From contig NZ_AP018920.1 of assembly GCF_003945385.1 (NCBI RefSeq), positions 4,340,001-4,404,000 of the forward strand: 64,000 nt of DNA. Reading direction: 5' to 3'. The translations under genes were made by a program, and so were the position numbers. A model generated the notes under the pieces. It was not told the origin of the DNA. It did not search any database and worked only from the letters and a program-made list of their open reading frames with translations. Below, piece after piece: positions 4,404-6,823 of the stretch. Positions within the stretch are counted from its first letter, which is position 1; the number at the start of each line of letters is the position of its first letter. Source of the DNA: Pseudonocardia autotrophica (lineage in GTDB: Bacteria > Actinomycetota > Actinomycetes > Mycobacteriales > Pseudonocardiaceae).

Positions 4404-4877
4404 TCACCGCTCGCCGGCGGCGCCGGGTGGGCCGAGATCGATCGGCGGCATCGGCAGCGCGCCGGGCGCCCACGTCTCGAGGAATCCCTGCTGGGCGCCG
4501 AGATCGACCAGCTCCACCCGGGCCCCGATGCCGGCCAGACGGTGGTAGGTGAAGGACCGCCCGTACGGGCAGGAGTCGAAGTCGACCGGCGCGCCCCGGT
4601 CGCTCAGCCGATCCCGGTCACGCGCAACGTCGGCGGACCAGTAACCGATGTGATCGAACCGGGGGCCGGTCTGCGTGATGTCCCACGGGCTCCCCGGGGG
4701 CCCTTCGATGACCTCGAAGAACGGCGGCCCGGCGGTCGAGAACACGATCCGGTAGGCCCAGTCGCCCAGGCTGCCGTCCCGGACCGGGTTCCACCGCACG
4801 CCCAGCGCGGCGGTGAGCTCACCCGTCGCGACCTCGATGCTCCGTACGGCGAAACAGAGATGGTAGAAGTCACCCAT
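4404..4877 (-). CDS. VOC family protein (methylmalonyl-CoA epimerase-like fold)
   Basis: 157 aa. I chose ATG 4875-4877 because the VOC fold begins there ('MGDFYHLCFAVRSIEVATGEL'-like start), although the frame is open further upstream through repeat DNA. 'HLCFAV', 'FEVIEGPPGSPW' and 'FDHIGYWSAD' match the paired half-site pattern of epimerase-type VOC proteins: His/Glu metal ligands in the first strand and the end of the first module, with a second His in 'DHIGY'. The ligand set looks intact, so metal-dependent isomerase or lyase chemistry is plausible, but the substrate is unknown. The 49-bp repeats lie just upstream of its start. Confidence 0.85.
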   Translation of the reverse strand: MGDFYHLCFAVRSIEVATGELTAALGVRWNPVRDGSLGDWAYRIVFSTAGPPFFEVIEGPPGSPWDITQTGPRFDHIGYWSADVARDRDRLSDRGAPVDFDSCPYGRSFTYHRLAGIGARVELVDLGAQQGFLETWAPGALPMPPIDLGPPGAAGER

Positions 4878-4951
4878 CCCGCCGATCCTGGCATCGGACC
4901 CGACGCGCGCCCAGCCCGCCGCCGCCGCCGCTCGCCGCCGCCCGTCGAGAG

Positions 4952-5000
4952 GTACAGGAGGGCGAGATGTCGATCTCTGCACAGCGCTGGTGTGACTCTC
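4952..5000. repeat. 49-bp intergenic repeat, copy 1
   Basis: This copy and the one at 5133-5181 match at 46 of 49 positions and are spaced exactly 181 bp apart in direct orientation. The core holds a small inverted repeat, GAGATGTCGATCTC (5-bp arms), and ends in CTCTC. Copy 1 carries a perfect AGGAGG seven bases before the ATG inside the repeat, so spurious reading frames start here in both copies (with different reading frames and no shared protein after the repeat). The repeats lie in the gene-free stretch 4878-5305. Confidence 0.8.
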
Positions 5001-5132
5001 GGCGGGCCGGGACCGGTTGGGTGGGGCGTGGCGGACGGCTGGGCCTGTGTCGCCGACGAGCTGCGGCGCCCTCAGCGGGTGACGTAGCGATGGGTCCGGC
5101 AGCAGCGCCCCACGCCCTCGACTCGCCGAGGG

Positions 5133-5181
5133 GTACACGAGAGCGAGATGTCGATCTCTGCACAGCACTGGTGTGACTCTC
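5133..5181. repeat. 49-bp intergenic repeat, copy 2
   Basis: Second copy of the element at 4952-5000, differing at three positions; the Shine-Dalgarno-like AGGAGG of copy 1 is changed to CGAGAG here. Both copies are followed by a CCGGGCCGGG-type GC-rich flank. Apart from these repeats and the G-rich tract, I see no gene or other element in 4878-5305. Confidence 0.8.
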
Positions 5182-5183
5182 AC

Positions 5184-5276
5184 CGGGCCGGGGCGGGGGC
5201 GGGAGGCCGGGGGCGGGAGCAGGGGGCGGGAGCAGGCCGGGGCGGGGAGGGGCGGGGAGGGGCGGAGCGGGGCGGT
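5184..5276 (+). repeat. G-rich tract with many G3-G5 runs
   Basis: About 93 bases with irregular repeats of GGGGCGGG and GGGAGCAGG. More than ten runs of three to five G fall on one strand, enough for several G-quadruplexes. It starts right after the second 49-bp repeat. No coding signal fits it; frames through it give only Gly/Arg-rich nonsense. Confidence 0.65.
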
Positions 5277-5305
5277 TGCCTGTTGCGGGGGCCGGGCGAG
5301 TGGGG

Positions 5306-5604
5306 TCAGCCGGGCCCGTCGGCCGGCGAACCCGCACCCCAGTGGAACTGGCCCGCGGTCGGTTCGACCCGGAACGTCCAGCCCAGGCGCACGAGCTTCT
5401 CCGGCGCGTACGGCACCTTGATGATCTCGAAGCCGGTGCCGTCGAACAGCTCCCTGCGAACGACCGGCGACGACGGACCCTCGATCATCTCCTCCCCCGG
5501 GCGGTGCGAGTCGTCCACGAACATCACCTCACAGCCGGGGGCCCAGGCTCGAGCGGACCGACTCCAGGCGGCCTGGCGGAACCAGCCCCTGCAGCGTCTC
5601 CAGC
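5306..5604 (-). pseudogene. Relic of a class I SAM-dependent methyltransferase (C-terminal piece)
   Basis: About 100 codons up to TGA at 5306-5308 resemble the end of a class I methyltransferase: an 'APGCEVMFVDD' strand (motif post-II/III region, usually Leu-Arg-Pro-Gly-Gly), then 'FEIIKVPYAPEKL', then 'LGWTFRV', and a final beta hairpin 'FHWGAG'. The upstream SAM-binding part (the Gly-rich motif I) is missing; the frame upstream reads Arg-rich nonsense. I therefore call it a truncated relic. Its upstream edge lies only about 35 bp from the duplicated rnpB end at 5639, so the truncation may be linked to the same recombination. Confidence 0.55.
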
Positions 5605-5638
5605 GAGCAGGACCTACGAGCCGGTGGCCGTGGAGGCA

Positions 5639-5664
5639 CGGACGAGTCGGTCTGTAGACCGGAT
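5639..5664 (-). repeat. Duplicate of the rnpB 3' end (candidate attachment-site remnant)
   Basis: CGGACGAGTCGGTCTGTA (5639-5656) is identical to the last 18 bases of rnpB at 6410-6427, and six of the next eight bases also match (CCGGAT). Orientation is the same as rnpB. The copies are 771 bp apart. A lone 3'-end copy downstream of a structural RNA gene is the classical footprint of a site-specific integrative element that used the RNA gene as attB. No integrase remains. Confidence 0.6.
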
Positions 5665-5745
5665 GCAGCCGGCGTCGAAGGTCAGCGGCCCGATTCGGGC
5701 ATCCGGCCGTCTCCGGGCCGTGCCGCACCTCTACCGCGACCGCGA

Positions 5746-6180
5746 TCAACCGTGGTGGACCGCCTCGATGTTGTTCCCGTCAGGGTCGCTGACGAACGCG
5801 GCGTAGTAGCCCTCCGAGTACTCGGTCTGCACACCTGGAGGCCGCCGGCTCTCTCCACCAGTGGCCAGTGCGGCGCGGTAGAAGTCATCGACGGCCGCCC
5901 GGCTCGGAGATCCGAAAGCGATATGCGCCGTCGTCGTCGCCGCGACCTCACCTGCCGGCATGATCCCGAAGTCATCGGCGTGCGGTCGCCCGAACGCCAC
6001 CCCGCCATCCACGTCCCCACTGCGGAGGCGCTCGATTCCCAGAGGCGCCAAAGCGGCCGTGTAGAAGCGGTCGCTGACAGCGAGGTCGGACACCACGATC
6101 GTCACGTGGTCCACGACAGGAATCGGTCTTTCCTCCACGGGCAGCACCGTACCGGTGAGGACAACCTGAAGCTCGTTCAT
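5746..6180 (-). CDS. VOC family protein
   Basis: 144 aa from ATG 6178-6180, preceded by a GGGGAG ribosome-binding site. The VOC domain starts at about residue 23 with 'VDHVTIVVSDLAVSDRFYTAAL' and ends with 'AAFVSDPDGNNIEAVHH', both hallmark segments of the glyoxalase superfamily. Metal-ligand positions appear present (His in 'DHVTI', His in 'AHIAFGS', Glu in 'NIEAV'). The substrate is unknown. The gene is the only intact one between the two copies of the rnpB 3' end (5639 and 6410), so it may be cargo left from an integrated element. The rest of that interval, 6181-6408, holds nothing I recognise. Confidence 0.8.
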   Translation of the reverse strand: MNELQVVLTGTVLPVEERPIPVVDHVTIVVSDLAVSDRFYTAALAPLGIERLRSGDVDGGVAFGRPHADDFGIMPAGEVAATTTAHIAFGSPSRAAVDDFYRAALATGGESRRPPGVQTEYSEGYYAAFVSDPDGNNIEAVHHG

Positions 6181-6408
6181 TCGTGCTCCCCGAGCACGAC
6201 GTCGATCGCACACCGGGTACGGGCCGGGAGACCGTGCAGGTCCGCCACGACGGCTTCGGCGATCGGCTGTTGCTTCCAGCATCCAGTCCTTGTCCCCTGG
6301 GCCGTGTCCGGGCCGTGGGGCGTTCGGGAGGGATGCGAACCGTCGAGAGCTCACGCGAGCATCGCGCCTGGTCACGACCGCTCCCCGAGCCTGGTGCCGG
6401 AGTGCGGG

Positions 6409-6823
6409 GCGGACGAGTCGGTCTGTAAGCCGGATCCTGTTCCCGGGCACCTCACGGTGCTCCGTTCGGCGACCATCCATCTCGGCCTGCCGTCGCCGGC
6501 AGGCTCCAGCGGTCCACCCGCAGGCTCGGGCGGGCAGCCCTCGAACGCCTGCGCAACCGTTCCGCCACGGGTGGCGGTGCGGTCTCTCGACCTTGCTCCG
6601 GGTGGGGTTTACCGAGCCACCCCGGTCACCCGGGGTGCTGGTGGTCTCTTACACCACCGTTTCACCCTTACCTCCGGGCGGACCCGGAGGCGGTCTGTTC
6701 TCTGTGGCACTGTCCCGCGGGTCGCCCCGGGTTGCCGTTGACAACCACCCTGCCCTGTGGAGTCCGGACTTTCCTCGACGGGATCCGGAGATCCCGACGC
6801 GGTCGCCCGACCGACTCGTCCGC
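6409..6823 (-). ncRNA. rnpB: RNase P RNA, bacterial class A
   Basis: Catalytic RNA that trims the 5' leader of precursor tRNAs. On the minus strand, P1 is a perfect 15-bp pairing between GCGGACGAGTCGGTC at the 5' end and its complement at the 3' end. The conserved segments are in the right order: GAGGAAAGTCCGGACTCCAC (rc of about 6757-6776) and CAGGGCAGGGTGG at P4, AGGGTGAAACGGTGGTGTAAG with GAGACCACCAG in the specificity domain, then GTAAACCCCA, and the GGCTTACAG stretch before the 3' P1 strand. Length is about 415 nt, normal for actinobacteria. The ends are set by P1 pairing and may be off by a few bases. The 3' end is duplicated at 5639. Confidence 0.95.

Follow-up and report, generated by a model that had tools for sequence, protein, structure and literature searches.

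AICEs and CIMEs, as well as the decay and the accretion of such elements, are already established, as can be taken from the available parts of the respective reports (PMC3218068, PMC5704250, PMC9513070, PMC3364876). For the AICE sites of Choufa et al. 2022, the part of the paper considered here gives 36 in tRNA genes, 14 in protein genes and one intergenic site (PMC9513070). According to the accessible part of the Islander paper, which by its title covers tRNA and tmRNA genes, islands regenerate their target and a displaced fragment marks the far end; the same arrangement is described here for rnpB, which is another RNA target (PMC4383910). In the main text of Ghinet et al., rnpB or RNase P appears nowhere. 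The papers that combine rnpB, an integrase and an attachment site do not, in their available parts, concern rnpB as the site. Furthermore, no report of rnpB as attB was found in the literature searched, which was covered mostly at listing level, with the TIGER survey outside that search. This survey, which is later than Islander, may list rnpB as a target.

The stretch of DNA analysed here (in the following: the window) comprises 64,000 nt of the genome of Pseudonocardia autotrophica, which is designated G000 in the genome sets. It contains rnpB and, 771 bp away, a second copy of the 3' end of this gene. Based on the comparison of this repeat, of both arm motifs and their spacing, of intact relatives at the same site and of the absent mobility genes, the focal 0.77 kb is very probably a decayed, CIME-like remnant of a mobile element integrated at the 3' end of rnpB. 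The locus comprises the following features:

6410..6818, minus strand: rnpB, class A RNase P RNA (RF00010, 292.8 bits, E 9.9e-95)
6410..6435, minus strand: attL core, the 3' end of rnpB, 26 bp, including the 3' strand of helix P1
6289..6409, minus strand: left arm of the element (nhmmer E 1.7e-14, 53.4 bits, with a profile of the left arms of seven elements without G000)
6300..6316, minus strand: left arm motif ACGGCCCGGACACGGCC, at +94 from the rnpB end, one of two copies in the window
6177..6290, minus strand: possible C-terminal relic of a gene upstream of VOC, its stop overlapping the VOC start (inferred from the reading frame)
5746..6180, minus strand: intact VOC gene (glyoxalase/dioxygenase superfamily), 144 aa (PF00903, E 6.7e-9)
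5705..5721, minus strand: right arm motif ACGGCCCGGAGACGGCC, 57 bp before the far core
5639..5664, minus strand: attR core, the far copy of the rnpB 3' end, 24/26 identical
5306..5560, minus strand: methyltransferase-like C-terminal fragment, N-terminal part missing, just outside attR

Repeat and contents of the focal interval

The sequence CGGACGAGTCGGTCTGTA occurs exactly at 5639-5656 and at 6410-6427 of the 64-kb window, in the same orientation. Extended to 26 bp, the two copies (5639-5664 and 6410-6435, spacing 771) are identical at 24 of 26 positions, with two adjacent changes inside the core of the far copy, which confirms the originally noted duplication of the rnpB 3' end. Allowing up to three mismatches, three matches to the 18-mer were found in the window compared to 0.11 expected. 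The third of these (three mismatches, 6805-6822, on the other strand) falls on the rnpB 5' end, which provides the second strand of helix P1 and forms 13 of 13 pairs with the core at rnpB. Throughout the 7.5-Mb genome, the exact 18-mer is restricted to the two places mentioned, and one further place shows two mismatches.

The enclosed ~0.75 kb had been described as a VOC gene and unrecognised DNA. While the former holds true and the gene is intact, much of the latter turned out to be arm sequence of the attachment sites. The left arm includes a terminator-like hairpin adjoining rnpB (by eye). The arm motif ACGGCCY-N(3-5)-ACGGCC occurs only twice in the 64-kb window, once in each focal arm; for the narrower ACGGCCC-N4-ACGGCC with up to one mismatch, three matches were found compared to 1.08 expected, of which the two exact ones are the focal arms. 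Compared to its relatives, the focal left arm is shorter by 8-9 nt (+94 versus +102/103). The right-arm profile gave a weak match to the focal right arm (E 0.059), which was still the best match outside the training rows.

The VOC gene is the sole recognised cargo of the focal interval. Its nearest proteins are 77%, 73% and 70% identical, the third one originating from a Pseudonocardiaceae MAG. With the best candidates, at most ten per genome, taken into account, a VOC match at E <= 1e-28 was obtained in one of the 390 family genomes, namely its own. As a hallmark of the element family A described below, the VOC gene was rejected, because it has no match in the other 389 family genomes and is absent from the named family-A intervals. 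An integrase, rep or tra gene was not recognised in the focal interval, the matches of the integrase profile being confined to other parts of the genome, and tblastn with the Rep and Tra proteins of family A gave no match in the region downstream of rnpB. Outside the attachment sites, at about 4404-4877 on the minus strand, lies a second candidate VOC-like reading frame (MGDFYHLCFAVRSIEVATGELTAALGVRW...).

The predicted methyltransferase relic was indeed found just outside the far copy, as a C-terminal fragment at about 5306-5560 on the minus strand. Over 97 positions, it is 42% identical to a protein of 222 aa from G041:C57, and it has no Pfam match at E <= 1, the name methyltransferase being given by eye only. 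Just beyond this fragment, an 89-nt direct repeat with the palindromic centre GAGATGTCGATCTC was observed (4943-5031 and 5124-5212, 82% identical, 181 bp apart).

When positions 5250-6409 were compared with the 62 genomes of the genus, 26 of these, the focal genome among them, showed matches. All matches were short except for the match to itself and the one to G041:C57, which covers 117 query bases and pointed to the left arm. For the DNA downstream of the focal rnpB (nucleotides 1-2013, reaching past the far copy), blastn gave no match in any of the remaining 56 loci of the genus. With the focal interval as query, there was likewise no match at E <= 1e-4 in the regions following these 56 genes. 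The same duplicate with the same VOC gene in all relatives, which had been named as the pattern speaking against an integrated element, was thus not seen. Since flank and interval have no blastn match in these 56 loci, the event is framed by neither an empty site nor a close relative, and the deletion and the flank junction are not directly seen.

Elements at rnpB in related genomes

RF00010 matched 58 of the 62 genus genomes, 57 of them over the cut-off, and these 57 were used; G045, whose matches were all partial, was left out, as was an additional partial match in G038. Each locus comprised rnpB and up to ~19 kb downstream, with the contigs of G046, G038 and G027 ending within 0.8 kb. The last 26 nt of rnpB were found again downstream in the same orientation with up to two mismatches at five of the 57 loci (G000, G043, G053, G039, G007). 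With up to six mismatches, same-orientation copies occurred at eight loci, and reverse copies, serving as control, at none. The 3'-end pattern of rnpB (up to two mismatches) was present in 326 of 390 Pseudonocardiaceae genomes, with two or three matches in 21, in nine of which they lie on one contig. In this survey G000 counts once, because its far copy exceeds two mismatches. In several drafts of genus g15 (G252, G254, G256-G260), the rnpB 3' end was found two or three times, in most cases on different contigs.

Seven Pseudonocardiaceae genomes from five genera, as well as Dactylosporangium aurantiacum from another family, carry pSAM2-like elements of 7-20 kb at rnpB (family A), each of the eight being bounded by rnpB on one side and by a further copy of the rnpB 3' end on the other. 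The interval comprises 8.7 kb in G043, 12.1 kb in G039 and 7.3 kb in G007 within the genus, and 20.4 kb in G259, 10.4 kb in G316, 8.4 kb in G325 and 12.0 kb in G328 in other genera of the family. In Dactylosporangium, the far core lies at a distance of 14.4 kb from rnpB, and the segment in between encodes RepSA, FtsK and the integrase. In G043, G039 and G007, a tyrosine integrase ends the interval, stopping shortly before the far copy, and is preceded by a RepSA-type initiator; in G039, one cargo gene is located between integrase and attR. These elements support the proposed family targeting rnpB and the interpretation of the repeat as the footprint of an integrative element with rnpB as attB. 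The suggested comparison of the rnpB-downstream regions across Pseudonocardia yielded integrase-bearing elements with the core in three other genomes of the genus. The flanking core copies were found as expected, whereas the expected position of the integrase next to rnpB was not, since in the best-matching family it sits at the far end. Altogether, the sequence comparison supports the 3' end of rnpB as the putative attachment site of an element family.

The tyrosine integrase was identified by PF00589 in G043 and Dactylosporangium, and the integrases of G259, G316, G325 and G328 are 54-68% identical to that of G043. In the alignment of the seven Pseudonocardiaceae integrases, the arginine, HxxRH and tyrosine motifs, which we take to be the catalytic residues, are invariant. 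RepSA (PF20199) scored 258.8 bits in G043 and 472.8 bits in Dactylosporangium, and by tblastn, homologs sharing 52-87% identity with the protein of G043 were obtained for G039, G007, G259, G316, G325 and G328. An FtsK/SpoIIIE Pfam match was obtained for G039 and Dactylosporangium, while tblastn homologs with 34-35% identity were found in G316, G325 and G328 and one split over two frames in G043. No FtsK-like protein was found by tblastn in G007 (E <= 1e-10) or G259 (E <= 1e-5), and therefore these two elements may not be self-transmissible. The G043 element also contains a GntR/UTRA regulator. In the P. asaccharolytica element, one in which no transfer protein was found, a gene pair with low GC3 is located 943-3319 nt after rnpB and appears DNA methyltransferase/restriction-like by eye.

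Twelve loci were compared with respect to helix P1. Counting G-U, the core at rnpB forms all 13 P1 pairs in 11 of them, and G007 reaches 12 of 13. For the far cores, the 13 pairs are likewise complete in 11 of the 12, with G048 deviating by two mismatches; the far copy of G007 pairs with P1 better than its near copy. The far core of G316 (Prauserella alba) is immediately followed by another left arm of family A (E 9.5e-22), a trace of tandem accretion at rnpB.

In each of the seven family-A elements from Pseudonocardiaceae, the arm motif starts 102 or 103 nt after rnpB. Six of them show it again 57-70 bp ahead of the far core, and it is missing at the right end of G043. Dactylosporangium shows the motif at 93 and 113, and again 71 bp before the far core. 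Among the genus regions, it was detected in four of 57 (G000, G043, G039, G007) and absent in 53. The arms are putative integrase-binding sites. Outside the training rows, the left-arm profile, built from the seven integrase-bearing elements with G000 excluded, matched G008 (7.8e-22), G029 (1.7e-18) and a detached site in G041 (2.6e-18) in addition to G000, the next match having an E of only 0.03. In a second set, the profile matched a site in G012 that is likewise detached (1.8e-11), and it gave a weak match for Dactylosporangium (5e-5).

Scattered copies of the 18-mer at unrelated sites were the other result named beforehand as contradictory; core and left arm do occur together far from rnpB at G041:C57:6678-6823 and G012:C2:449259-449276. 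In the stretches fetched around these detached sites, integrases of families A and B, Rep and Tra were not found by tblastn. The sites could originate from integration at a secondary site, from rearrangement or from a broken tandem array. About 1 kb after the G012 core, an ORF was noticed which by eye resembles the C-terminal end of some other tyrosine integrase.

A loose family-A attL pattern matched 33 of 394 genomes in the class sample, of which by eye only G000 resembles a real attL, and 64 of 390 in the family, where, judged by eye on at most 80 letters per match, 14 resemble true left arms (G000, G007, G039, G041, G043, G252, G256, G259, G260, G262, G315, G316, G325, G328) and the other 50 appear chance-like. 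The reversed-pattern control exceeded these numbers, with about 55 genomes in the class and about 89 in the family; accordingly, the attL pattern alone proves nothing, and the class scan gives no evidence beyond the family. The left arms in G252, G256, G259 and G260 suggest that rnpB elements are common in genus g15. A search with the last 50 nt of rnpB gave four phage records and five records of the plasmid collection at E up to 10. Three of the five plasmid records were inspected and, as all three are complete rnpB genes, rejected as attP. Complete rnpB genes on records filed as plasmids were noted for Tsukamurella, Phocaeicola and Paracoccus.

Taken together, an element or relic is present at 19 of the 57 Pseudonocardia rnpB loci: six of family A, twelve of family B and G053. 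Family A comprises G000, G007, G039 and G043 as well as G008 and G029, which were assigned solely on the basis of their left arms. Family B, which is found at rnpB more often than family A within the genus, has a different integrase in inverted orientation, convergent with rnpB and ending ~40-380 nt from it. Its integrase or a piece thereof was found at eight loci (G021, G022, G052, G048, G038, G017, G001, G027) and its arm sequence alone, with E below 1e-5, at G026, G023, G016 and G024. Beyond the genus, G086 provides a 17.8-kb example with integrase, RepSA (490.4 bits), FtsK and far core. In G053, an exact 26-bp copy lies 2746 nt downstream, and the 2.7-kb interval contains two genes, a DUF3754 gene (132 bits) and one with a Bestrophin-like match below its cut-off, with no integrase match in the interval. 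This is perhaps a second CIME-like, cargo-only case.

Integrases of the rnpB elements

A scan of named genomes yielded 379 relatives of the integrase, of which the best 80 were taken. Among these best 80 of 379, six are followed by the rnpB core with up to four mismatches, the next best showing seven. The six belong to Pseudonocardia sp. ICBG1293, P. asaccharolytica, a Pseudonocardiales MAG, Qaidamihabitans albus, Prauserella alba and Dactylosporangium aurantiacum, the first five apparently corresponding to G043, G007, G259, G328 and G316. The tree was calculated with 81 integrases, namely 79 of the best 80 (one was too short) together with those of G039 and G325.

In this tree, the seven Pseudonocardiaceae rnpB integrases form one clade with a support of 97/92 and none of the other rows inside. 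The Dactylosporangium integrase is placed outside the clade (84/65), beside a group of 13, which consists of the seven rnpB integrases and six without a detected core; for at least one of these six (L168), the sequence covered after the integrase amounts to only about 400 nt. If this placement is right, the use of rnpB arose twice or was lost in between. The rows of Dactylosporangium and Prauserella alba are both flagged by the tree tool as long and unsure in placement. For a Streptomyces set, the part of Choufa et al. 2022 considered here describes integrase sequence and site as uncorrelated (PMC9513070). Compared to this, the rnpB integrase clade could be either an exception or a sampling effect.

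An integrase of the rnpB clade was not recognised in the focal genome, for which 13 integrase matches were obtained and the best one was placed. The integrase at 2.50 Mb was rejected as the cognate enzyme, its nearest relatives in the integrase set used here being Streptomyces integrases (48-50% identity). It is located 1.8 Mb from the locus, and no rnpB core was found within the 17 kb examined around it.

Origin of the focal unit and known systems

We infer an order of events in which the arms act as integrase-binding sites and one deletion suffices. The element would have integrated into the rnpB 3' end and supplied its own copy of this end, with the original end displaced to the far side; as the element brought its own rnpB 3' end, the gene would have stayed whole. 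A later internal deletion would have removed the regulator, transfer, replication and integrase genes, presumably in a single step that reached from the left arm to a point shortly upstream of VOC. Left behind would be attL with its arm site, the VOC cargo, and attR with its arm site, amounting to 0.77 kb. The VOC gene would then occupy the slot between integrase and attR, where G039 holds its cargo gene.

The shared sequence of only 26 bp might also be attributed to a simple segmental duplication of the rnpB 3' end or to chance, with no mobile element involved. This can hardly be upheld in view of an exact 18-mer compared to 0.11 matches expected even at three mismatches, of eight same-orientation versus zero reverse copies at the 57 loci, and of a left arm, arm motifs and spacing matching those of intact elements at rnpB. 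Since family B is commoner at rnpB in the genus, with an integrase or fragment at eight of 57 loci, the focal unit could be regarded as a relic of this family instead; however, its left arm matches the family-A profile (E 1.7e-14) and is absent from the matches of the family-B profile at E <= 1, which makes this assignment extremely improbable.

Two further readings are compatible with an origin from an integrated element. As accretion occurs at rnpB, which is documented by the second left arm in G316 (E 9.5e-22), at least two elements could have accreted and core recombination plus deletion could have left the short interval. Such a tandem-array relic is unlikely, because the focal locus with two cores and one left arm does not demand a second element. 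The 0.77 kb of attL, VOC and attR could also be a minimal, still mobilisable cassette instead of a dead remnant, moving with an integrase provided in trans by a related AICE or with an AICE integrating alongside. In favour of this, the two cores and the two arm motifs are preserved, the reading frame of VOC is intact, the VOC distribution looks like sporadic acquisition, and in the available part of their paper Choufa et al. 2022 suggest that leftovers might be mobilised in cis (PMC9513070). On the other hand, the far core has two adjacent changes, the left arm is 8-9 nt shorter than in the relatives, a cognate integrase was not recognised in the genome, and VOC was found in none of the other family genomes searched. 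We regard the mobilisable cassette as quite unlikely, and the decayed remnant remains the preferred reading.

Beyond the focal locus, rnpB might be a dedicated hotspot, a reading which we put forward tentatively. Accordingly, Pseudonocardiaceae and at least one member of the Micromonosporaceae would harbour at least two oppositely oriented AICE families at this site, one of them with a target-specific integrase clade; the P1 strand would be matched to the host, RNase P would be tuned, and the focal cassette would still be recognisable by integrases. The RNase P RNA gene is generally held to be essential. As the clade members carry a host-matched 3' strand of P1, each insertion would, according to the hotspot reading, replace a part of this essential ribozyme. 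If true, the integration state or the element allele could tune the RNase P RNA, with terminator and P1 strand supplied by the element, and the focal unit would be a minimal cargo cassette at the hotspot that integrases still recognise. Since the 3' strand of P1 and probably also the terminator come from the element, the question arises whether RNase P is altered by an insertion.

Documented by intact examples together with their arm sites and a clade of integrases, rnpB joins the RNA-gene landing sites of actinomycete elements, and island tools limited to tRNA and tmRNA genes would miss the elements located there. The Pseudonocardiaceae are known for antibiotic producers, and the rnpB integrases are candidate tools for site-specific integration at a conserved site in this family.

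Compared to the AICEs of the pSAM2 type, the intact relatives share the tyrosine integrase near attR, the RepSA-type initiator and, in most of them, a putative FtsK/SpoIIIE-type transfer protein, and they likewise integrate in, and regenerate, the 3' end of an RNA gene. What differs from the AICEs is the target, rnpB. As in pACPL of Actinoplanes, for which the available part of the report describes arm-type repeats flanking the core (PMC3364876), the core of the rnpB elements is flanked by arms. Of the features by which AICEs are recognised, the focal unit shows the att core direct repeats at the 3' end of an RNA gene, while integrase, Rep and FtsK are absent. Judged by its sequence, it would fit a CIME, in which integration and transfer genes are lost and attL and attR are retained, although it is very small with 0.77 kb and one recognised gene. 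The decayed AICEs in the considered part of Choufa et al. 2022 keep a partial integrase, in contrast to the focal unit at rnpB, which has none (PMC9513070). Nonetheless, they resemble it in retaining direct repeats and cargo after the loss of the mobility genes and, as here, a complete AICE is found in a relative at the shared site (PMC9513070).
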